From a virus, in IMG/VR virus record IMGVR_UViG_3300008116_000512, positions 1-29,399 of that record: a DNA stretch of 29,399 nt, one strand, 5' to 3'. Positions within the stretch are counted from its first letter, which is position 1; each line of letters begins with the position of its first letter. The notes beneath the pieces were generated by a model. It searched no databases and had not been told where the DNA came from. It saw nothing but the letters and a program-made list of their open reading frames with translations. The position numbers and the translations under genes were made by a program. This document shows, in pieces, positions 538-16,611 of this stretch.

Positions 538-3006
538 TTATCTGTAGACAACGCCTTTTTTGCCAAAAATTAAGGGTATGGTTTTGGCAAGACCTTTGAG
601 TTTGGGATTTTGCAAAACAATAGCAACAAAATGTGTTGCCAGTTCGTCTAAATCAGATTGGCTCATTTTAGATTTTAACTGAAGAATAAGATTTTTAAAA
701 CTGGTATAGTTATTTGGATTACTGGTTATTATTTCGATACCTTTTTCTGGCATGGCCATAAGTATATTCTTAATATTAATATTTTGACCCCTAAGCAAAT
801 ACTCCATAATACTTGCATGTAAGGTATTTGTATATTCTATTTTACTAAGTTTTCCTATCAGCCAAGATTCAAATACAGAATTTATAGCATCAATGTCTTG
901 CTGTGTTTTATTTTTATCTTTGAAAGCTTGTGATCTAAGATTTGACACCCAAGTACTTATGCTACCGCCTTTTGTAATTTTATCTCCAAATAGCGCCTCT
1001 ACATCTTCTGTTGTCGGCATTAAAATTGGACTGTCACTAGCAGTCGAATTATTTATTTTGTTTAAATAATCTTTTAATTCTTCAGAAATCTTGTTGTTAC
1101 TTGCAATAATTTTTTGGGCTAAATATTGTTCGTTTTCAAATCTATCAACCTTATTCAAAAGGTATCTTACTTCATCGTCGGTAAGATTTGTAAAATATTC
1201 TTCAGGCAGCATTTTTATTATTTCTCTGCCCCCGCCTGAAAGATTATGGCATACATCAATAATTTTTTTAATCTGATCGTATGTCATAGTTTTTTTGGAT
1301 GTTTTTAATTTAGCAATTAGAGCATCCAAAATGAGGGCGTTGTCTTTAACACTTAAATCTGGGAAATTTTCTATTATATTTTGGAAAGCTTTATCGCCTA
1401 TTTCTTCTTTGTATTTAATAAGAAGCATGACTGTAGTTAGTCTTAATTGATATGCATATCCATTTTCCTTGTCAGCATTTGCTGGATCATTGAAATAATC
1501 TTTTATTTCTTGTGCAGGAATTAATTTTTCAATATTTTCGACAGTTAAATAAACATCAGAGCTTTCAATTAATTTCTTCAATATTTGTTGATAGGCTTTT
1601 CCCTGTGTGAAGACAAGAGGATTATTTAAATCTACTAAATATTTTATAAAATCCTCCACATCGTTCTTTGAGTAGAACGAAGTATTTGAAACCGCTCTAT
1701 ATACATCTTTATCTGTTATAGTTCCTTTATCGGCAACAATCTTAATAAATAATTTTGGATTAAAGTTTGCTATTTGTGTAATATCTACTGATTTACCAAA
1801 TTTTTCTGCTCTTTCAATAAAATCTGCAAGTACTTTAATCATTTCATCTTCAGAGTGCCCTCTGTTTTTCATGTGCAAATTAATTTCTCTGATGTTTGGC
1901 ATCTTGTCAAATGCCGATAGAATATAGTCTCGTATTGCCTCTGGTTTTGATGTCATTTTTCCAACTAACGCATAAGCTTGACTGGCGTTTCCATATGGGT
2001 CATCTTTTTGTGCATTAAGTATTTTGATAATTGCGGGATTATTGTCAAGATTAGCATTTGAATATTCATAGATTAATGATAGCAAAGCACTAGCGCCAAA
2101 AGTTTTAATCGTAGAATCTGGCATTTTTGTGAACAGTAAATTTACTGGAAGATTTTTTTCTTTTAAGAAACTTAAAGCATCTTTTAATTCTTCGTATTCA
2201 TTACTTGTACCGTTGACTAGTTTTTTTCTATCTTTTACATCTTTAATAAAAGCAACAAAATCTTTGCTTGTCATGGTTCGTAGGCCTTTTTTCGAACCAT
2301 GACCTTGAGGAACTTTATAAGCAATTTTTCTTGTTTTGACATCCAGAGTTTTTTCTGGGAAATTAACTTTGGCTAAGTTACGCAAATTATTCCATTCTAT
2401 TTGACTTGGGTTAACACCTATTGTTCTTACTTCTGCCCATGCTATAGGGGTCACATTTACAAATGGAGGATACATTAAAAGCACATATCCGTGTGGATCA
2501 TTATAAATAAGGCCTTTGCAATTAGTTGTCGAGTGATACAATTTATATTTGTGTACAAAATCTGCTACTGCATCTCCAACAACTTTCATTTCAACAGTAC
2601 CCGGAGTGAAACCTAATAAATCATCTATTTTCTTTAAATCATCATCGGATGCTGGAATGTTTATGCCCAGAGCTTTGACTTGTTTTGTGAGTGTAATTGT
2701 ATTGTCATTATAAATCTTTCTGGCCCAACTCGGAATAAACACAAGATAATTTTTTACATCATCTACCTTCATCTTGATAAGATATCTTCCATAACTAGAC
2801 ATACCTGATGATAATTGGTCTTCAAGATTCAAGGTAGAATAAAGACCGGGGCCATATGCTTCACCATGTCCAATTATATATCCAGAACTGAAAATGCCCT
2901 CAACAGATTTTTGAGGATTATCTCCTGATTTCCCAGTTCTATGATATATCGTTGCAGAATTGTTTGCGAATAACTCTTCAACTAACAGCCAGTTTCTGAA
3001 ATCCAT
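538..3006 (-). CDS. PARP-like ADP-ribosyltransferase domain protein with N-terminal packaging-tag-like sequence
   Basis: 822 residues. Residues 1-10 (MDFRNWLLVE) match the tag shared by several proteins here and end in L-V-E, a T4-gp21-type cleavage consensus. Residues about 19-95 resemble an ADP-ribosyltransferase core of the PARP/diphtheria-toxin class: Y-H-R-T with His22, G-I-F-x-S-G-Y at 37-43, then G-x-A-Y-G-P-G-L-Y-S-T with Tyr56, comparable to the H and Y of the PARP H-Y-E triad. The third catalytic residue is not obvious by eye. From about residue 230 to the end the protein is Lys/Ile/Leu-rich and helical, perhaps HEAT-like repeats; this part is unassigned. Inference: an injected enzyme that ADP-ribosylates a host target, as T4 Alt modifies RNA polymerase. 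There is no Shine-Dalgarno before ATG 3006; a TAAATA box lies 12-7 bases upstream. Confidence 0.72.
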   Translation of the reverse strand: MDFRNWLLVEELFANNSATIYHRTGKSGDNPQKSVEGIFSSGYIIGHGEAYGPGLYSTLNLEDQLSSGMSSYGRYLIKMKVDDVKNYLVFIPSWARKIYNDNTITLTKQVKALGINIPASDDDLKKIDDLLGFTPGTVEMKVVGDAVADFVHKYKLYHSTTNCKGLIYNDPHGYVLLMYPPFVNVTPIAWAEVRTIGVNPSQIEWNNLRNLAKVNFPEKTLDVKTRKIAYKVPQGHGSKKGLRTMTSKDFVAFIKDVKDRKKLVNGTSNEYEELKDALSFLKEKNLPVNLLFTKMPDSTIKTFGASALLSLIYEYSNANLDNNPAIIKILNAQKDDPYGNASQAYALVGKMTSKPEAIRDYILSAFDKMPNIREINLHMKNRGHSEDEMIKVLADFIERAEKFGKSVDITQIANFNPKLFIKIVADKGTITDKDVYRAVSNTSFYSKNDVEDFIKYLVDLNNPLVFTQGKAYQQILKKLIESSDVYLTVENIEKLIPAQEIKDYFNDPANADKENGYAYQLRLTTVMLLIKYKEEIGDKAFQNIIENFPDLSVKDNALILDALIAKLKTSKKTMTYDQIKKIIDVCHNLSGGGREIIKMLPEEYFTNLTDDEVRYLLNKVDRFENEQYLAQKIIASNNKISEELKDYLNKINNSTASDSPILMPTTEDVEALFGDKITKGGSISTWVSNLRSQAFKDKNKTQQDIDAINSVFESWLIGKLSKIEYTNTLHASIMEYLLRGQNINIKNILMAMPEKGIEIITSNPNNYTSFKNLILQLKSKMSQSDLDELATHFVAIVLQNPKLKGLAKTIPLIFGKKGVVYR

Positions 3007-3724: not shown

Positions 3725-4681
3725 ATGCTTAAGTTTTCATCTTGGTTGACAACCCTAAACGAAATTAAGTTCGAAGATTTAGAAGAAATCCATGGCTACG
3801 ATGCATCTCCAGAGCAAATGCTTGGATTGTATATCTTATATTATCAAGCGTATAGTGCAGAAGGATTGAAACCATGGAGCTACTACGATTGGTCAGGAAT
3901 TCGTGCTTCCAACTGGACATTTTTGGGAGTTTTGCCAAAAACCCAAGACCTATCAACTCTTAAAGCTGTTCTTGGTAAGCATCGTGGGGATCATCAAGAT
4001 GCAGCAAATGAAATCATAGCTGGTCCAGACAAAAATATGATGGGATATGCCGGTGGCATATCTTATCGTGATCCAGATGGCAAGTCATTCAAGATCACAA
4101 GTTCTTGGGGTACAAATCCTACTGCAAAGATGAGAGCAGCTGCCGACCTTATCAAGAAAGCAAATGAGTCTAAACCTCCAAAAGAAATATTTACGGCAGC
4201 AGATGATAGGCTCAAAGATTTAATTACTAATGCTGAAGCAAAAATGCCTAAGCTACACGCCAGAGGTCTTGTGTCAGTACCAAGCTTGGGACTTAGCACT
4301 CCACCAAAAAGTCTTATCCCCGTTCTTTACAGGGCTATTGTGCGTATGCCGGGAGCATCTGGCCATGGCACTTGGACAGGTTTTGATCCAGAGACTGGTG
4401 CGCTGAGAATGAATCTGCAAGGTGCTGGAGATGTTGAAAAATTTGTATTTGGCAACAAAGCTTTGTGGAAAAATCACTTGGGAAGAGAACTAGAACGAAG
4501 TGGCCATCTAGACAAAATAATGCAAGCCAAAAAAGTGATTGATGGCGGTGGCATGTTGGCATGGGGTGCCAAAAAAGCTGTTCTTCTGGCCCTCAACGCT
4601 GCTGTCGCCAAAATGACAGGCGACTCATCTATCAAAGTAGATGAGGAAGGCTTAATGTGGCTTTTGAAACAATTGGATTAA
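3725..4681 (+). CDS. Tagged tandem paralogue 1, predicted internal virion protein of unknown function
   Basis: 318 residues from ATG 3725, preferred over the TTG at 3701 because GCGAGG lies just upstream and because it places the conserved tag at the N-terminus (MLKFSSWL... ending L-N-E at 11-13). It aligns over its whole length with the next gene. Shared blocks include YYQAYSAEGL/YHQAYSAEGL, the NWTF-GV motif, GPDKNMM, GGISYRD, KITSS, IFTAAD-RLKDLI, VPSLGL-TPPKSL, a G-H-G-x-WTGF segment, and KKVIDGGGML-WGAKKA near the C-terminus. No membrane segment or known catalytic motif is visible. The tag suggests packaging into the capsid. I do not recognise a characterised family. Confidence 0.78.
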   Translation: MLKFSSWLTTLNEIKFEDLEEIHGYDASPEQMLGLYILYYQAYSAEGLKPWSYYDWSGIRASNWTFLGVLPKTQDLSTLKAVLGKHRGDHQDAANEIIAGPDKNMMGYAGGISYRDPDGKSFKITSSWGTNPTAKMRAAADLIKKANESKPPKEIFTAADDRLKDLITNAEAKMPKLHARGLVSVPSLGLSTPPKSLIPVLYRAIVRMPGASGHGTWTGFDPETGALRMNLQGAGDVEKFVFGNKALWKNHLGRELERSGHLDKIMQAKKVIDGGGMLAWGAKKAVLLALNAAVAKMTGDSSIKVDEEGLMWLLKQLD

Positions 4682-4683
4682 TC

Positions 4684-5637
4684 ATGTTGAACTTCCAAAA
4701 TTGGCTAGCTAAACTTCATGAAATTAAACTAGAAGATTTAGATACAAAATACGGCAGATCATTAGATGATGCCGAAACACTAGCTATGTACCTTGTTTAC
4801 CATCAGGCTTATAGCGCTGAAGGACTTAACCCTTGGAAATTCGATGATTGGTATTACAGTCGTGGCAGAAACTGGACATTTGTTGGAGTTATGCCAAGAC
4901 AAGCAGATATACAACAAATTAGACAGATTTTGGAAAAAAATGGAGGCGATAAACAAAGAGCAGCCAATGAAATACTGTCTGGACCAGATAAGAACATGAT
5001 GTCATATGTTGGTGGCATATCTTACAGAGATGCTGGCTCTGGAACAGGCGTGAAAATAACAAGTTCTTTTGGCATGAATTCTATTGCTAAAATGCGGGCT
5101 GCTGCCGAAGTAATCAGAATGGCAAACGAATCTGTTCCTCCTAAAAACATTTTCACAGCAGCAGACTCTCGACTTAAAGACTTGATTGTTTCTGCTGAAG
5201 AAAAAATGCCAAAATATTTTGCAAAGAAAATAGTTGCAGTCCCGTCTTTAGGGCTTGTAACCCCACCAAAAAGCTTGGTTGGACTATTTGCTGGCATGAT
5301 TGATCAAATTCCCGGATCAGCAGGCCATGGAAGATGGACTGGGTTCAATCCTCAAACTGGTGCCTTGAAGATGAATCTACAGGGAGTTGGGGAAGTTGAG
5401 AAATTTATTTTTGGCAACAAAGCAATGTGGAGCAGCGTTATTAAGAGAGCTTTAGAGAGAGAAGGGCATCTTGATAAAGTCATGGCAGCTAAAAAAGTAA
5501 TCGATGGCGGTGGAATGCTTGGATGGGGAGCCAAGAAGGCTCTGCTTTTAGCACTCAACACCGCTCTAGCCGTTTTCTTGAAGGGCAATTCAATCGATGA
5601 AGAGGGAATGATGTGGCTACTTGATAAGTTAAGCTAA
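4684..5637 (+). CDS. Tagged tandem paralogue 2, predicted internal virion protein of unknown function
   Basis: 317 residues from ATG 4684, two bases after the stop of paralogue 1. There is no strong Shine-Dalgarno, so translation is probably coupled to the upstream gene. The start is fixed by the tag MLNFQNWL followed by L-H-E at 11-13, matching paralogue 1 at identical spacing. By eye a clear majority of positions are identical or similar to paralogue 1, with highest conservation in the central GPDKNMM-GGISYRD and C-terminal KKVIDGGGML-WGAKKA blocks. This points to tandem duplication followed by divergence. Paralogue 1 carries a few extra residues near its C-terminus (KMTGDSSIKV). Function unknown; predicted to be co-packaged with its twin. 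Confidence 0.78.
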   Translation: MLNFQNWLAKLHEIKLEDLDTKYGRSLDDAETLAMYLVYHQAYSAEGLNPWKFDDWYYSRGRNWTFVGVMPRQADIQQIRQILEKNGGDKQRAANEILSGPDKNMMSYVGGISYRDAGSGTGVKITSSFGMNSIAKMRAAAEVIRMANESVPPKNIFTAADSRLKDLIVSAEEKMPKYFAKKIVAVPSLGLVTPPKSLVGLFAGMIDQIPGSAGHGRWTGFNPQTGALKMNLQGVGEVEKFIFGNKAMWSSVIKRALEREGHLDKVMAAKKVIDGGGMLGWGAKKALLLALNTALAVFLKGNSIDEEGMMWLLDKLS

Positions 5638-5734: not shown

Positions 5735-6811
5735 ATGAAGAGAAGAGGATTTACATTAATTGAGTTACTTGTAGTAATTGCAATTATTGCAGTTTTAGTT
5801 GGGCTTCTTGTTCCAGCTGTCCAGAAAGTAAGAGAAGCTGCAAATAGAATGAGTTGCAGCAATAATATGAAACAAATTGGTTTGGCCATGCATAATTTTG
5901 AAAGTGCTACTGGCAAATTACCAACCCCCGGACAAGTTGACAGCACAGGAAATAACGCAACACTATACACTATTCATTCATGGGCAACACAGATATTGCC
6001 GTATGTTGAGCAAGAAGCTACATATAAACTTTTCGACATGACAAGTCCTGTACCTTCTAACTATAACAGAGCTTTCTTGCACAATACATCTAGAGGTCTT
6101 GACTACGACGATCCTTCTTTTCCTAGCGGTTGGGTAGCTGCTCAAACTCAAGTAAAGACATTTGTTGGTCCTAGCACGGCCCTAGCTCCCTCTGGCAGAT
6201 CAGGAGGAGAAAATCTTGGCTGCATCGATTATATGGCAGTATCAATTACTGATATTGACGAAGGTACTGGAGCAAGGGCAGTTGGAAACGGTTCTGCACA
6301 GTACAGGGGCAAGTTTTTCGGCATGTTAAACGCTAATGGTTCAACAGTAGCATCAGTAATTGATGGCTCGTCAAATACAATTCTTGTCATAGAAGATGCA
6401 GGCAGAGCCCATCCATCAGTTGCAACTTTTGGGGCTGGCTCGGCAAGAAATTCTCCCGTAGCTTCCCCCGGCCATCCTGTAATTGGCAACGGAGGCATCA
6501 CACCTGCTCGTAGGGTATATGCATGGGCAGACCCAGACGCTTGTGCAAACGGTGTTTCGGGTCCAAGCAATTCAACCGGAAGCAAAGTTGCAAAAATCAA
6601 TAATAACCAAACCCCAACTGGTGGACCTTCATCATGCCTGTGGACAATCAATAACTGTGGTCCCAATGATGAACCATTTGCCTTTCATTCTGGAGTAGCC
6701 ATGACTTGTATGGGAGATGGATCAGTAAGGGCCATGAAAGACACAATTGACGCTCTTACATTAAAATCTATCTGTGGTGCATCTGACGGCAATATTGTTA
6801 ATATTGACTAA
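5735..6811 (+). CDS. DUF1559-family pseudopilin-like protein (prepilin N-terminus, H-x9-DG C-terminal motif)
   Basis: 358 residues. The N-terminus is a textbook type IV prepilin/type II secretion pseudopilin signal: short basic leader MKRRG, cleavage expected between Gly5 and Phe6, Glu at +5 (residue 10), then a hydrophobic helix to about 28. The next segment ([23 protein letters not shown]) and the KLPTPG stretch are typical of the large DUF1559 family of Planctomycetes. His318, nine residues, then Asp328-Gly329 form the H-x9-DG motif of the same family. The gene is intact and of usual length. AGGAGA precedes ATG 5735 and a strong terminator follows. In the host such proteins are thought to be exported and assembled by a type II/IV-like system. 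A phage copy suggests capture from the host; its role is unknown. Confidence 0.9.
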
Positions 6812-7070: not shown

Positions 7071-7553
7071 ATGAAGGTGCTTTTGCTACATGGTTGGTTT
7101 TCTACGGGTGAAACTAAGCACAGTTCTTTAGTTTCTATGGGGCATGAAGTAATCAAGCCAAGTCTTAACAATATCTTTTTTAGCTCTGCTGTGCAAGAAG
7201 CTCAAAAAGCATATAACGAATGTAATCCAGATGTTATTGTTGGTTCGTCTAGAGGAGGCGCAGTAGCACTAAATATGCAAGCTGGAAACACTCCCATGCT
7301 TTTAATAGCTCCAGCTTGGAAACGATTTGGCAAAAAACTAGATAAGATACAAAACAACATCTTTGTTATGCATTCAGAACATGACAATACTGTGTCATAC
7401 AAAGATTCAGTTGAACTAGTGAAAATCAATCCTAATATCTGTCTTTTCACAGTTGGGAAGGATCACCAGCTTAATTGCATGGAAGGATTTAATACGATGA
7501 AAAGCATATTGAATCATATTGCAAATGGAACAGCAAATGTCAAAGTATCTTAA
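7071..7553 (+). CDS. Small alpha/beta-hydrolase fold protein
   Basis: 160 residues with the order of motifs expected of an alpha/beta hydrolase. LLLHGW at 4-9 supplies the oxyanion-hole turn. VIVGSSRGGA (G58-x-S60-x-G62) is the nucleophile elbow with predicted Ser60. HSEHDNTV at 101-108 carries the predicted acid Asp105, and GKDHQLN at 129-135 carries the catalytic His132. No signal peptide is visible, so it should be cytoplasmic. At 160 residues it is a minimal version close to the RBBP9/YdeN-like serine hydrolases, with little room for a lid domain. The substrate cannot be told; an esterase role is the general expectation. The AAGGAGG ribosome binding site is among the best in the window. 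It converges with the next gene, overlapping it by four bases. Confidence 0.85.
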   Translation: MKVLLLHGWFSTGETKHSSLVSMGHEVIKPSLNNIFFSSAVQEAQKAYNECNPDVIVGSSRGGAVALNMQAGNTPMLLIAPAWKRFGKKLDKIQNNIFVMHSEHDNTVSYKDSVELVKINPNICLFTVGKDHQLNCMEGFNTMKSILNHIANGTANVKVS

Positions 7554-7840
7554 CTATTTTTTTCGAACAGATATGCTGTGCTTTGCTCTGGAACTGAAAT
7601 CCAAATAATTTCTTTTTGGTTTTCGTTCATAGTTTTTCCAGCTATAACTGTTCCAACATTTGGAAACTGGCTCTTCCATTGTTCAGGAATTAGGCTGAAA
7701 GCATCCTCTAATTCTATTGGATCAGAGTTTTCTTTTAGCTCAGGTATAGACTCTATATCATAAGTTCCGATGAACTCATAATTGGATGAGCCAGTTTCAA
7801 CTGTTTGTCTGAAACTCATCCACTCATTAAATCTTTGCAT
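7550..7840 (-). CDS. Unknown protein, possible weak packaging tag at its start
   Basis: 96 residues from ATG 7840. A longer form from TTG 7912 (120 residues) overlaps the upstream gene by 28 bases and has AAGG only at an unusually long distance. I chose the ATG because it is a standard codon and because the resulting N-terminus, MQRFNEWM, fits the M-x-x-F-x-x-W-[L/M] tag of other proteins here, although no [L/I]-x-E follows closely. The remainder is acidic and hydrophilic, with EFIGTYDIESIPEL, a Pro/Trp-containing middle (LIPEQWKSQFP) and a C-terminal strand-like IIWISVPE. No family recognised. It lies just downstream of a small tagged protein on the same strand. Confidence 0.55.
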   Translation of the reverse strand: MQRFNEWMSFRQTVETGSSNYEFIGTYDIESIPELKENSDPIELEDAFSLIPEQWKSQFPNVGTVIAGKTMNENQKEIIWISVPEQSTAYLFEKNS

Positions 7841-7884
7841 TTTTTTTCTTTCTATCTCTGACCAGAGATAATTTATTTCCCGCC

Positions 7885-8106
7885 TCAACCCTCTCTTTGA
7901 TCTCTCTGCCAAGACTGTTTTTGACCTTGGCGAGTTCTTTCTCTATTTGGACGAGAGTCATGTGTGCCAGCACCACTCATGTGAGCTTGATGGCCAGTTC
8001 CTATTTTGCCTACTTTACCCTGAATGAGATTATCATCATTTGCTTGTGGATTTGTAGGCATGGGTTTTTTTGCCTCTTTAATCATCAGCCATTGCGTAAA
8101 CTTCAT
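7885..8106 (-). CDS. Small basic tagged protein, predicted packaged/injected
   Basis: 73 residues from ATG 8106, with a GGGGGA ribosome binding site six bases upstream. The N-terminus MKFTQWLMIKE is a clear tag (F-x-x-W-L) ending in I-K-E at 9-11. After the predicted cleavage the mature protein would be about 62 residues, hydrophilic, rich in Gln, Gly, His, Lys and Arg, without hydrophobic core residues, so probably disordered. The C-terminal third (RPNRERTRQGQKQSWQRDQR) is strongly basic and could bind DNA or RNA. Size and composition recall T4 internal proteins, which are small, basic and injected with DNA. There is no sequence family I can name. Confidence 0.65.
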   Translation of the reverse strand: MKFTQWLMIKEAKKPMPTNPQANDDNLIQGKVGKIGTGHQAHMSGAGTHDSRPNRERTRQGQKQSWQRDQREG

Positions 8107-8504: not shown

Positions 8505-8798
8505 ATGGCATCAACACAATATACATATTGCAAAAATAATATCAAGTCTATTAACGCTAGCACAAATGATAGCTTGAAGCTATTTTGTACTAATGTTATT
8601 GAGGCTTACAATTCGAAAACGGCTAATCCAGTAGCTGCTGCCAAAGACTACTATTGTGCATCTGCTGGTGGTTATTTAGGCATGAAACTTCTACGCAAGC
8701 AAGACGGAGTCCTTACCATCTTGAATGGAAATGACTACAAATCTGTTAGTGAAGCCTATGTCCCCGCCATAACAGTTTGCAATCAGAATCTTTACTGA
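8505..8798 (+). CDS. Hypothetical protein (97 residues)
   Basis: The start is taken at ATG 8505, just after the stop of the preceding gene; the frame can be extended to TTG 8478 inside that gene but without support. No Shine-Dalgarno is visible, so translational coupling is likely. The protein is Cys-, Asn- and Tyr-rich (four Cys), with an Ala-rich helical middle (NPVAAAKDYYCASAGGYLGMKLL). Function not recognised. Its last seven bases overlap the 3' end of the convergent methyltransferase gene. Confidence 0.55.
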   Translation: MASTQYTYCKNNIKSINASTNDSLKLFCTNVIEAYNSKTANPVAAAKDYYCASAGGYLGMKLLRKQDGVLTILNGNDYKSVSEAYVPAITVCNQNLY

Positions 8799-9796: not shown

Positions 9797-10168
9797 ATGG
9801 AAAAGAATCACAAACATCTTATATTAAACGCAGTCGTCAAAAATCCGATTAATGATGAAGTTTCATGCAATGAGTGGCTGCAAAAACTTGTTGAAATTGT
9901 AAACATGGAAATCCTCATACCTCCACATTCAAAATACTGTGATATTCCCGGTAATGAAGGTGTGACAGGAACCGTAGTAATCACAACTAGCCATATGAGC
10001 ATTCATATTTGGCCACAACTTCCAAAACCTTACATCAGAATGGATGTCTATTCTTGTAAAGATTTTAATGCAGAACAAGTTGTTTCTTTTGTTGATAGCA
10101 CCATGGGGATTGTTGAATCTGATTATCTGTTGATTGACAGAAACGAAACCAAATTAAAACTCATCTAA
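9797..10168 (+). CDS. S-adenosylmethionine decarboxylase family (SpeD-like) pyruvoyl enzyme
   Basis: 123 residues, the usual size of class 1b proenzymes. The core GVTGTVVITTSHMSIHIWPQ at 55-74 matches the family signature. Ser65 in T-S-H is the expected self-cleavage site that yields the pyruvoyl group (the usual ESH is TSH here). His70 lies five residues on, as His68 follows Ser63 in the Thermotoga enzyme. Cys87 in MDVYSCKDF stands for the catalytic cysteine. All three processing/catalytic positions are therefore present. The canonical role is decarboxylation of SAM for spermidine synthesis; relatives that decarboxylate arginine or ornithine are known, so the substrate is open. GAGGATC precedes the ATG. 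Its stop overlaps the ATG of the HNH gene (TAATG). Confidence 0.85.
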   Translation: MEKNHKHLILNAVVKNPINDEVSCNEWLQKLVEIVNMEILIPPHSKYCDIPGNEGVTGTVVITTSHMSIHIWPQLPKPYIRMDVYSCKDFNAEQVVSFVDSTMGIVESDYLLIDRNETKLKLI

Positions 10169-12386: not shown

Positions 12387-13022
12387 TTAAATTTCTATTT
12401 CCTTATTATTAAGCTTAAACTTATACTCAACATTTACTTCTGTAACAAGTTCTGGGACACCGATATGATTACATATTTTATGTTTTTTAGCTGATTTAGC
12501 ATCCATGAATATTTCGGCATGGTTTTGTCTATGAAGCATTTCAAGAAAATGATTTTCAGGAAAACCGATATGCTTTGCTACCATTTCAAAAATCATCTTA
12601 TTAAGTCTATCCGTTTCGTTGGCGTTTGCCTTGACTTCTTCAACCTTGCCATATGAACCGGAACTGACTTCATGCAACATAATAGTGGCTTGGTCTGACA
12701 TGAATCTCAATCCATTCGTGCCAAACATGAAGAGCAAGGCTCCGCAAGACATGGCTTTTCCGTTGCAAATAGTTGCAACCGGCACAGGAGAGGATTTGAC
12801 TAGGCTTACCATTTCGAGGAGGCAGTATACTTCTCCACCGTATGAATCTATAACTATCGGTATAATTTTTGGTTTCTTTTCTAATGCATGATTAAAATCA
12901 TCAGAGAACTTTTCAACCATCTCATAGTTGAAAGCTTTATTCACTCTGATTACGGGTGCTGATACACCAAGATCAGATGGCTTGCAACGAATTCTTCCGT
13001 CAACTTGCATGTAGTTTTTCAT
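12387..13022 (-). CDS. ClpP-like serine protease, possible prohead protease
   Basis: 211 residues of the ClpP/crotonase fold. PIVIDSYGGEVYCLLEMV at 55-72 is the oxyanion-loop region (ClpP S-x-G-G). AMSCGALL at 90-97 carries nucleophile Ser92, MLHEVS at 115-120 carries His117, and IFMDAKSAKKHKICNHIG supplies the predicted Asp174. The Ser-to-His distance of 25 residues equals that in E. coli ClpP (97 to 122). Phages use ClpP-like enzymes as capsid maturation proteases, and the virion-type neighbour at 11519 favours that role. A cytoplasmic ClpP partner or host-ClpP modulator is the alternative. No strong Shine-Dalgarno precedes ATG 13022. No AAA+ chaperone gene is present in the window. Confidence 0.85.
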   Translation of the reverse strand: MKNYMQVDGRIRCKPSDLGVSAPVIRVNKAFNYEMVEKFSDDFNHALEKKPKIIPIVIDSYGGEVYCLLEMVSLVKSSPVPVATICNGKAMSCGALLFMFGTNGLRFMSDQATIMLHEVSSGSYGKVEEVKANANETDRLNKMIFEMVAKHIGFPENHFLEMLHRQNHAEIFMDAKSAKKHKICNHIGVPELVTEVNVEYKFKLNNKEIEI

Positions 13023-13052: not shown

Positions 13053-14483
13053 TCAAACAATTTTTTTGACTTCAGCATCAAATAATTTTTTGCGAATATC
13101 TTCAAATTCGTCAGTCCTAGGAACTCTCCCTAAAAATTTTGTGTAGAGAGGATTAACTTCACGACTGCCTTGATAATCAACATACTTTCGCATCACATTT
13201 GTGAAATCATGTGTGAAAATTTTATCATAAATCTCGGAGCAATTCATAATCTGCAAAAATGTTTTAATTGTTGAATTTGGCATAGTAAATGGTTTGGCAA
13301 AGAAGTCATAAAGCAATGAAGGATTAATAAAATTGCCTCTGCAAAATTGTGCTAATTTAATAAACTTTGTAATGTTTTCTATATCATGTTTAGACCAGCC
13401 CATTTTTTCTAAAACATTAGCAACATGACCTGCCATATTTTTCTGCAAGATATATCCTGTTGCTAAAATTCTATTGTTAGTTAAATCGGCAGTAGGATGT
13501 TCAATGACACAATCTGGGAAAATATGTTTTACAAGATGAGAATGAATTAAGTTGTTAATATAGTCTTGAGTTGGTATATTAATATTTTCAACAGCGCTGA
13601 TATAATACCTTTTCAAAACCTTTTTGTCTTCATCATAATTAGAATGATCATAATTCCTAATCTTTTCATTTATATCAGCAGGTATCTTTTTATCAAACGC
13701 ATATCTTGCAGATAGGTTAGCGATCCTGTAGGGAAGATATGGGTCTTTTTCGAATGGTTGTTCTCTCTCTGATATAAGAACTATTTTGCCATTCTTCAGG
13801 TCAAATATACCACCTAGCGGGTCAATCAACTCTGTGTTCTCGCCCTCATCATTTTTGAGAGCCAAATACAAAGCGTTTATGGTAAGGTCTCTCGATTGGG
13901 CATCTTCTTCTGGAGTTGTTGCAAAGACTCGTTTCTTTGGAATCAACATGCGGTTTTTAGTATTTTTGTTGAAAGTTGATATGAAAATCTTTTGGGAATC
14001 TACCATCACAGTAAACTCCATTTCATGACCTTCACTATCCCATCTACTCGCAAAAAATACTTTTTTCTTGCCTTCTATTTCTGGAAGACTTTTATATTTG
14101 CTAAGAATCTCAATATCTTCAATTAAAGGTTTTACTTCCTTGAGGTCCGCAGCTTCTGTAGACAAAATCATTCGAATTTCATCTGGTGATGCGTCCGTAG
14201 CACAGTCATATTCAACAACCGTTTGGTTTTTAAGATGATCTCTGAGAGACCCTCCAGTCAAGTAAAGGCTTTTCCTCTTCAATGTAGGATGCTGAATTCC
14301 TTTGCCTTTGATGATTGTTGAATATCCAACCTTAATTTCACCGGAATTAGCGAAAGCTTTGACGATTGTTCTCAAACTTGGATTCGATTTGTAATCGATT
14401 ATGAATGGACGGAATTCACCACCCTTGTCTGAATCTTTCAAACGCACTTTCGAAACGATGTAATTTGGTTCTTGATCTTCCAT
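13053..14483 (-). CDS. Class II poly(A) polymerase / CCA-adding-type nucleotidyltransferase
   Basis: 476 residues. YLTGGSLRDHL at 74-84 is the class II G-G-x-[VL]-R-D motif. The catalytic pair expected as D-x-D is E91-Y-D93 (VVEYDCATDASPDEI), with the following A-T-x-A-x-P-x-E typical of the family. QSRDLTINAL at 197-206 matches the R-R-D-F-T-I-N-A-L block, and LIDPLGGIFDLKNG at 219-232 and FEKDPYLPYRIA at 244-255 match the next family blocks. The spacing between the catalytic pair and the R-D-x-T-I-N block is long (about 105 residues), implying an insertion. The enzyme would add nucleotides to RNA 3' ends; whether it repairs tRNA or makes A-tails cannot be decided. GAGGAAAA precedes ATG 14483, which overlaps the end of the upstream operon gene closely. 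Confidence 0.85.
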   Translation of the reverse strand: MEDQEPNYIVSKVRLKDSDKGGEFRPFIIDYKSNPSLRTIVKAFANSGEIKVGYSTIIKGKGIQHPTLKRKSLYLTGGSLRDHLKNQTVVEYDCATDASPDEIRMILSTEAADLKEVKPLIEDIEILSKYKSLPEIEGKKKVFFASRWDSEGHEMEFTVMVDSQKIFISTFNKNTKNRMLIPKKRVFATTPEEDAQSRDLTINALYLALKNDEGENTELIDPLGGIFDLKNGKIVLISEREQPFEKDPYLPYRIANLSARYAFDKKIPADINEKIRNYDHSNYDEDKKVLKRYYISAVENINIPTQDYINNLIHSHLVKHIFPDCVIEHPTADLTNNRILATGYILQKNMAGHVANVLEKMGWSKHDIENITKFIKLAQFCRGNFINPSLLYDFFAKPFTMPNSTIKTFLQIMNCSEIYDKIFTHDFTNVMRKYVDYQGSREVNPLYTKFLGRVPRTDEFEDIRKKLFDAEVKKIV

Positions 14484-15052: not shown

Positions 15053-15487
15053 ATGGATGAAAATACACAAACATTGCAAGTTCCACCTATGAATTTAATG
15101 GTTGGAAACCCCAATTCGACTGAGTCTCCTATCAATGACAACGACCTTCTGAACATATATTCAGAAATTATGGGTGATCTACGGAATGACAGAAAAGAAA
15201 TAGATTGCCTTTTGAATAACTTCGTTGAGATGGTCATGAATGAAGGTGATAGTAGTTCAGCCTCAAAAGAAGCTGTTGTCAATCTAATAAAAGTTAAATC
15301 AGACATTGCAGATAAGAAGACCAAAATTGCCGATCTTATGACAACTTTAAGATTAAAAGATAAATCTGTCTCAAAATTGACAGCTAATCAAACAAACCAT
15401 ATACATATAACAGACAAGCGTAATTTGCTGGAAACTATAAATAATCTGAAAAAGGTTAAATCAGAATCTGAAGAAGGTGTAAAATGA
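15053..15487 (+). CDS. Small terminase-like (T4 gp16-type) protein, tentative
   Basis: 144 residues. A disordered Pro/Asn-rich head (to about 28) is followed by helices. LLNIYSEIMGDLRNDRKEIDCLLNNFVEMVMNE (read in parts) recalls the helical start of T4 gp16, and KVKSDIADKKTKIADLMTTLRLKD recalls its central coiled coil. A C-terminal NQTNHIHITDKRNLLETINNL resembles the gp16 tail that follows its coil. Similarity is of pattern rather than close identity, and no large terminase gene follows, so the call is tentative. It is the first gene of the virion operon, as gp16 opens the T4 head gene cluster. Its stop overlaps the next start by four bases (ATGA). Confidence 0.5.
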   Translation: MDENTQTLQVPPMNLMVGNPNSTESPINDNDLLNIYSEIMGDLRNDRKEIDCLLNNFVEMVMNEGDSSSASKEAVVNLIKVKSDIADKKTKIADLMTTLRLKDKSVSKLTANQTNHIHITDKRNLLETINNLKKVKSESEEGVK

Positions 15488-16611
15488 GCGCACATTGGAT
15501 ACAAATCAGCGACTGGCTTTTAAAAGAAGAGGATGTGCTAGCCCCTGCACTAGACCCCGCTGCTGGTGGCCCTCCAGCTGATTCCGGTCCTCCCGGAATG
15601 CCCGGAGCCGGTGCTGCTGGTCCTCCTGCCGATGTTCCCCAAGAACCAAATCCTTTGACACAACCAGCACCCTCTGCTGGCAATACACCGCCTGCTGCCC
15701 CAACTCAGGCCATGGACGATCCAGATACTCCCGATATGCCAGATGAAAAACAAGACCTCAATTTCGAGGAATGGAAGGCCAAGTTTTTCAAGGAAAGCAT
15801 CAAGGGTGATGTTAATGCCATGATCGATATGGTTCAAAATGTAAGAAATGACCAGCTAGACGCATATCCAAGAAAGTTTGTAGAGGACAATCTGCAAGTT
15901 CTATTCTTGAGACAAAATGCAAATATCGATAAGGCTTCACAAGAAATTAGAAAATCTATTCGTGAGCAAATTGACAAGAACAATCCCGCTGTCAGCATAT
16001 CCCAGCATATGGTTGCAACCTTGCAGACCATGCCAGAGCTTTCACAAGTTTTTATCAAAATGATGGGTCTGTACAGCAACAAAGCTGACATGCACAGAAA
16101 ATTTCTTTCCGCTCTGCTGGGGGCACTTCAAGTTGGAAGCGGAGGACAGTCTGAAGATTTGATCCTCAACCAAAGAGAATACTCTATCAAAATTTCCACA
16201 AGATTAAATTCAAGATTCGGGTTGATTGATATTGGCCGATGGACTCTCAAGAAAGATGACCAAGAACAATACTTGAGTGAGCCAGAGCAAGAGAGGCTCC
16301 AAGACGGTAGTCCAGACGAGAGAGAAGTTCTACGCAAGAGAGTAATTCTGGAAAGCGTTTCTGAGTATTTCAGAAAAAGAGCTTTCATGATTAATGTTGT
16401 CAACAATGACGGTACTGTCTTCTTTTTAGGTCTAGACCTTTCCAACTCTCTAAAAGAGGCTTATACAAGTGGCAAATTAGTCGTGAAAAGTGATGAGTGT
16501 GAAAACCCTGAAGCTATGTACGATACCGATGGAGAGCTTGTCTCTGTTGTAGACATCAAGGTGATGTATACCAAAGAAAAAAGAACTTCCATTCACAGGA
16601 AATCCGAGTGA
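15484..16611 (+). CDS. Tagged virion protein with Pro/Ala/Gly-rich linker
   Basis: 375 residues from ATG 15484 with AAGGTG upstream. The N-terminus MSAHWIQISDWLLKE carries a variant tag (I-x-x-W-L) ending in L-K-E at 13-15. Residues about 18-75 are a low-complexity Pro/Ala/Gly linker (runs such as GGPPADSGPPGMPGAGAAGP), rising sharply in GC over neighbouring sequence and producing several open shadow frames on the other strand. The C-terminal domain (about 85-375) is helical then mixed, including ISQHMVATLQTMPELSQVFIKMMGLY and IKISTRLNSRFGLIDIGRW. No family recognised. Position in the operon argues for a virion or assembly component. The linker may act as a flexible tether after tag removal. 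Confidence 0.75.
   Translation: MSAHWIQISDWLLKEEDVLAPALDPAAGGPPADSGPPGMPGAGAAGPPADVPQEPNPLTQPAPSAGNTPPAAPTQAMDDPDTPDMPDEKQDLNFEEWKAKFFKESIKGDVNAMIDMVQNVRNDQLDAYPRKFVEDNLQVLFLRQNANIDKASQEIRKSIREQIDKNNPAVSISQHMVATLQTMPELSQVFIKMMGLYSNKADMHRKFLSALLGALQVGSGGQSEDLILNQREYSIKISTRLNSRFGLIDIGRWTLKKDDQEQYLSEPEQERLQDGSPDEREVLRKRVILESVSEYFRKRAFMINVVNNDGTVFFLGLDLSNSLKEAYTSGKLVVKSDECENPEAMYDTDGELVSVVDIKVMYTKEKRTSIHRKSE

Follow-up and report, generated by a model that had tools for sequence, protein, structure and literature searches.

Results

Organization of the locus

The locus comprises two adjacent genes encoded in a 29.4-kb IMG/VR record, the whole of which was analysed and is termed the window here. 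The genes and their N-terminal tags are as follows.

3725..4681, plus strand: first tagged paralogue, 318 aa; ATG at 3725, with GAGGA ahead of the ATG
3725..3763, plus strand: N-terminal tag of the first paralogue, MLKFSSWLTTLNE, predicted cleavage after E13; the pattern recurs on unrelated proteins
4684..5637, plus strand: second tagged paralogue, 317 aa; ATG at 4684; 61% identity to the first
4684..4722, plus strand: N-terminal tag of the second paralogue, MLNFQNWLAKLHE, predicted cleavage after E13; the pattern recurs on unrelated proteins

The geometry proposed in the initial annotation of this DNA, i.e. genes of 318 and 317 residues that lie two bases apart (4682-4683) and align end to end, is borne out: the alignment runs from end to end, interrupted by two gaps of 1 and 2 residues, and all of the named sequence blocks are present. 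Conservation is lowest over the first ~100 residues (46-50%) and higher over the remainder (62-70%). The same annotation had envisaged quick divergence after duplication; by contrast, the dN/dS check (dN about 0.32-0.33; dS about 1.9-2.6, which is saturated; omega about 0.13-0.17) reveals that the pair is an old duplication under purifying selection.

Both tags are followed directly by Ile-Lys, and their common form is MLxFxxWLxxLxE/IK, where the slash marks the predicted cut. Residues F4, W7, L8, L11, E13, I14 and K15 are identical in the two, and each propeptide ends in a phi-x-E sequence motif (LNE13 and LHE13), so that the tag and cleavage motif do occur, as had been claimed, at the same residue numbers in both proteins. 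In T4 IPIII, capsid targeting depends mainly on residues 4 and 7, with processing involving residues 8 and 10 (PMC9026906). F4 and W7 of the pair coincide with the two IPIII head-targeting positions (PMC9026906); the phi-x-E motif is displaced to L11-x-E13, a spacing that is shared by the tagged relative protein MITFNEWLEKIDE (locus L152).

The tag in the window and in related phages

We scanned for the pattern M-x(0-3)-F-x-x-[WFY]-[LMI]-x(1-6)-E at start codons, and took as the baseline its occurrence at internal positions within the same set of proteins. The window has 4 tagged gene starts out of 32, where internal positions predict 0.11; the corresponding values for four related phage records are 20/209 against 0.42 expected (G008), 6/312 against 0.31 (G024), 12/427 against 0.34 (G036) and 6/487 against 0.57 (G034). 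Across the window and these four records, the tag is thus enriched 10-50 fold over chance at starts. Outside the tag the tagged proteins are unrelated, with a mean column identity of 7%. Of 70 proteins with the aromatic core, 40 have the phi-x-E motif in the stretch of 9 residues that starts at the W/F, compared with 8 and 6 for the two stretches that follow. Of 40 F..W[LMI] tags, 22 have Phe at position 4. A single 181-kb record holds 20 tagged genes. In G008, the closest large relative, 11 of the 20 tagged genes lie within 16 kb, an arrangement matched by none of 2000 random placements.

It could be argued that the N-terminal motif is a matter of chance, or a generic amphipathic start, and that the pair are ordinary cytoplasmic accessory proteins. 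Since the motif is enriched 10-50 fold, and at start codons alone, and given also the clustering and the phi-x-E enrichment, we regard this proposal as very unlikely; the tag is a genuine, non-chance signal. A literature search, largely of freely readable papers, found none on such a tag in huge phages or on tagged anti-CBASS cargo.

Four other genes in the window carry, or may carry, the tag.

538..3006, minus strand: neighbouring tagged protein, 822 aa (MDFRNWLLVEE), same tag as the pair
7550..7912, minus strand: possibly a tagged protein if begun at an inner ATG (MQRFNEWMSFRQ, 96 aa), looser tag; 56% identity to a tagged G008 protein
7885..8106, minus strand: small tagged protein, 73 aa (MKFTQWLMIKE), same tag as the pair
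15484..16611, plus strand: conserved protein, tag of the looser form (ISDWLLKEEDVLA), in all close relatives

The N-terminal ~210 residues of the 822-aa protein are related to a tagged G008 protein (33-39% identity). By eye, its N terminus (YHRTG...GPGLYSTLN) is like that of an ADP-ribosyltransferase, making it a possible analogue of T4 Alt; a profile search of the PDB for this assignment gave no match.

The tagged repertoire differs among close relatives. It includes a 450-aa protein that ends in an S-adenosylmethionine lyase domain (record G034, L137:7179-8531, plus strand; PF23780, 6.8e-12), whose family serves to counter restriction. It also includes one protein that matches a methyltransferase weakly and one radical-SAM protein whose tag is looser. 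An Acb1/2'-5' RNA ligase-like protein with a tag-like start (record G036, L124:3432-4025, minus strand) was considered as tagged anti-CBASS cargo and set aside; its relatives in G040 and LR756511 are without a clear tag, and for this reason the gene is not used here as support.

Genomic context and the candidate processing protease

The window encodes a T4-type tail module, including baseplate wedge gp53-, gp25- and gp6-like proteins and a DNA end protector-like protein. Records as long as 343 kb, and also LR756511, a phage of 595 kb, encode relatives of the gp6-like protein, which makes it probable that the window is a piece of a large T4-like phage genome. The T4 late promoter TATAAATA is not in surplus in the window (63 counted, 58 expected). 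Further genes of relevance are listed below.

5735-6811, plus strand: prepilin-like protein (DUF1559, E 5.7e-44; N-methylation motif; H-X9-DG match)
9797-10168, plus strand: small S-adenosylmethionine decarboxylase-like protein, conserved in relatives
12387-13022, minus strand: ClpP-like protein, the only protease in the window, conserved in close relatives
13053-14483, minus strand: PolyA polymerase/CCA-adding-like protein, conserved in relatives

The DUF1559 prepilin-like protein is of a kind expanded in planctomycetes, and is a hint that the host is of planctomycete type. The decarboxylase-like protein may be linked to polyamines for DNA packing. A PolyA_pol domain is also present on one tagged protein.

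Synteny with relatives runs from position 8792 rightwards; leftwards of it the gene content changes, and the counterpart content in relatives includes other tagged genes. This arrangement bears on the proposal that the pair are structural or scaffold-core head proteins of the gp67/gp68/IPIII kind, aiding assembly rather than acting on the host. The pair proteins are basic and tagged, as such proteins might be, and loss of IPIII slows T4 head assembly (PMC9026906); against this, no copy of the pair was found in relatives that have retained the structural block, and it lies in a variable zone beside non-structural genes. We therefore consider a structural role improbable.

Matches over the cut-off to the T4 gp21-type protease (Peptidase S77, Pfam PF03420) came from 6 of the 11 relative records; the 14 control genomes gave none. 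In the relatives, this protease is encoded separately, besides the ClpP-like protein. The gene order in G008 is possible portal, 602-aa protein, protease, possible scaffold and capsid, the names of the neighbours being our reading, and the G008 capsid protein has an INE/TST site at residue 48, making a Glu-directed cut plausible. The window has no gp21 gene, with the head genes lying outside the fragment. The best phage match of its ClpP-like protein is a head maturation protease (phrog_94), and this protein could be the processing enzyme in place of the gp21 type.

The mature proteins

After the predicted cut, the mature proteins have 304-305 residues, a mass of 33.3 kDa, pI values of 8.94 and 9.31, and no cysteine. 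The suggestion in the initial annotation that they belong to no recognised family is upheld in all of the collections searched, including by the profile search for homologues that it had proposed. Pfam, PHROGs, NCBIfam and PADLOC profiles gave no convincing match to the pair; tblastn against phages at E values up to 10 gave chance matches alone; and a PDB sequence search gave no match. No homologue was found in viral contigs with each protein, the pair alignment or two sub-alignments as queries, or in genome contigs, in collection searches that rely on exact short peptide matches, which distant homologues can escape. A profile search of 50 relative records and hmmsearch --max on all loci likewise returned no pair homologue, and a scan for the motif GHGxWTGF gave 11 stretches, all of which are unrelated. 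Residues 75-100 of the second protein have a weak Fis-HTH/CUE/UBA-like match (E 0.01-0.1), on which we do not rely.

Structure prediction had been put forward as a check: both models from two AlphaFold2 runs on the pair are poor (mean pLDDT 55.7, with the strand region below 50), and there is a weak acetyltransferase-like hint in the N-terminal half. Foldseek with the pair models gave no match at E<=0.001. With VIA-align, the N-terminal half of the second model was matched by five chains, four of them GNATs (8yv7, Z 3.8; 2r8v, Z 3.6; 5kf1, Z 3.0; 7ovu, Z 2.1), and the GNAT chain 8a9o was aligned to the first model (Z 2.9); the models are of low confidence, and all of these values are under 4, a range that the tool itself describes as noise.

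These alignments (Z 2.1-3.8 over the two models), along with a strand-strand-helix-(possible strand)-helix order around GGISYRD...KITSS[WF]G...AKMRAAA...IFTAAD, raise the possibility that the pair are packaged enzymes that have a GNAT-like N-terminal half and act by modifying a host protein. The IFTAAD strand in this order is our reading and is outside the models. Such enzymes would be comparable in role to Rac of phiKMV-like phages or to T4 Alt, Rac being a GNAT of those phages (named in PMC7824862). Given the low pLDDT values and Z scores, the lack of a Foldseek match at the threshold used and of a match to the Pfam GNAT profile, and the absence of the usual R/Q-x-x-G-x-G/A loop, we view the GNAT assignment as doubtful; it would in any case refine, rather than oppose, the explanation that we favour. 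The acetyltransferase-like hint is a lead for deeper alignment and no more.

Discussion

The explanation that we prefer, to which we assign a probability of roughly 70%, is that the pair are duplicated T4-style head proteins that are packaged, processed and injected. The first 13 residues would act as a capsid targeting sequence, docking the protein in the prohead core, after which the gp21-type prohead protease of the phage would cut after E13. The resultant basic mature proteins of 33 kDa would remain with the packaged DNA and be ejected along with it, so as to act in the host cytoplasm ahead of any phage gene expression. We infer packaging, cleavage and injection; the proposal in the initial annotation that a T4-like tag directs packaging gains support from the enrichment and clustering of the tag, the residues at positions 4 and 7, the phi-x-E motif, the gp21-type protease of the relatives and the basic nature of the mature proteins.

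By analogy with other tagged proteins, the likeliest class of action for the pair is host takeover or counter-defence, both because the recognisable tagged domains of relatives are non-structural (S-adenosylmethionine lyase, weak methyltransferase, radical SAM) and because close relatives differ in their tagged repertoire. Within this class, a counter-defence role is plausible. T4-like phages inject a few tagged proteins. More tentatively, it may be that in a clade of large T4-like phages, of which this one perhaps has a planctomycete-type host, a single F-x-x-W-L tag delivers a large set of enzymes and effectors, unrelated to one another and exchanged rapidly, in which case the pair would represent an orphan effector family, possibly of divergent acetyltransferases.

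If the tag is valid across the clade, it provides a simple sequence handle with which to list the injected proteins of large uncultured phages. Most such proteins are without a recognised family, and the pair adds one orphan, duplicated member. Since injected proteins act first in infection, they are a good hunting ground for new counter-defence and host-takeover activities.

Among the closest known systems are the T4 internal proteins IPI, IPII and IPIII. Like the pair, they have a short tag at the N terminus, in which positions 4 and 7 hold the key residues and after which comes a Glu cut site, as well as a basic mature part and a gene content that is variable in T4-type phages. The pair differs from them in that its predicted cut follows residue 13 and not residue 10, in that no sequence relation to them was found, in that the second aromatic residue of the tag is mainly Trp here, and in the size of the mature part, 304-305 residues compared with 76 for IPI*. 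Given this difference in size, the likeness to IPI is one of delivery only, and neither PHROG nor Pfam matches indicated a sequence relation to IPI, the GmrSD inhibitor. T4 Alt, a packaged ADP-ribosyltransferase, is similar in being a large non-structural protein carried in the head; no ADP-ribosyltransferase domain is seen in the pair, whereas the tagged 822-aa neighbour may be a nearer analogue. The head ejection proteins of giant phages, phiKZ and SPN3US among them, offer a parallel of another type, in that a gp21-related protease cleaves many of the cargo proteins on the C-terminal side of Glu, although the phiKZ motif is S/A-x-E and the tags described here are closer to those of T4. The pair would join a known kind, the CTS-tagged internal head proteins, with an orphan mature domain.
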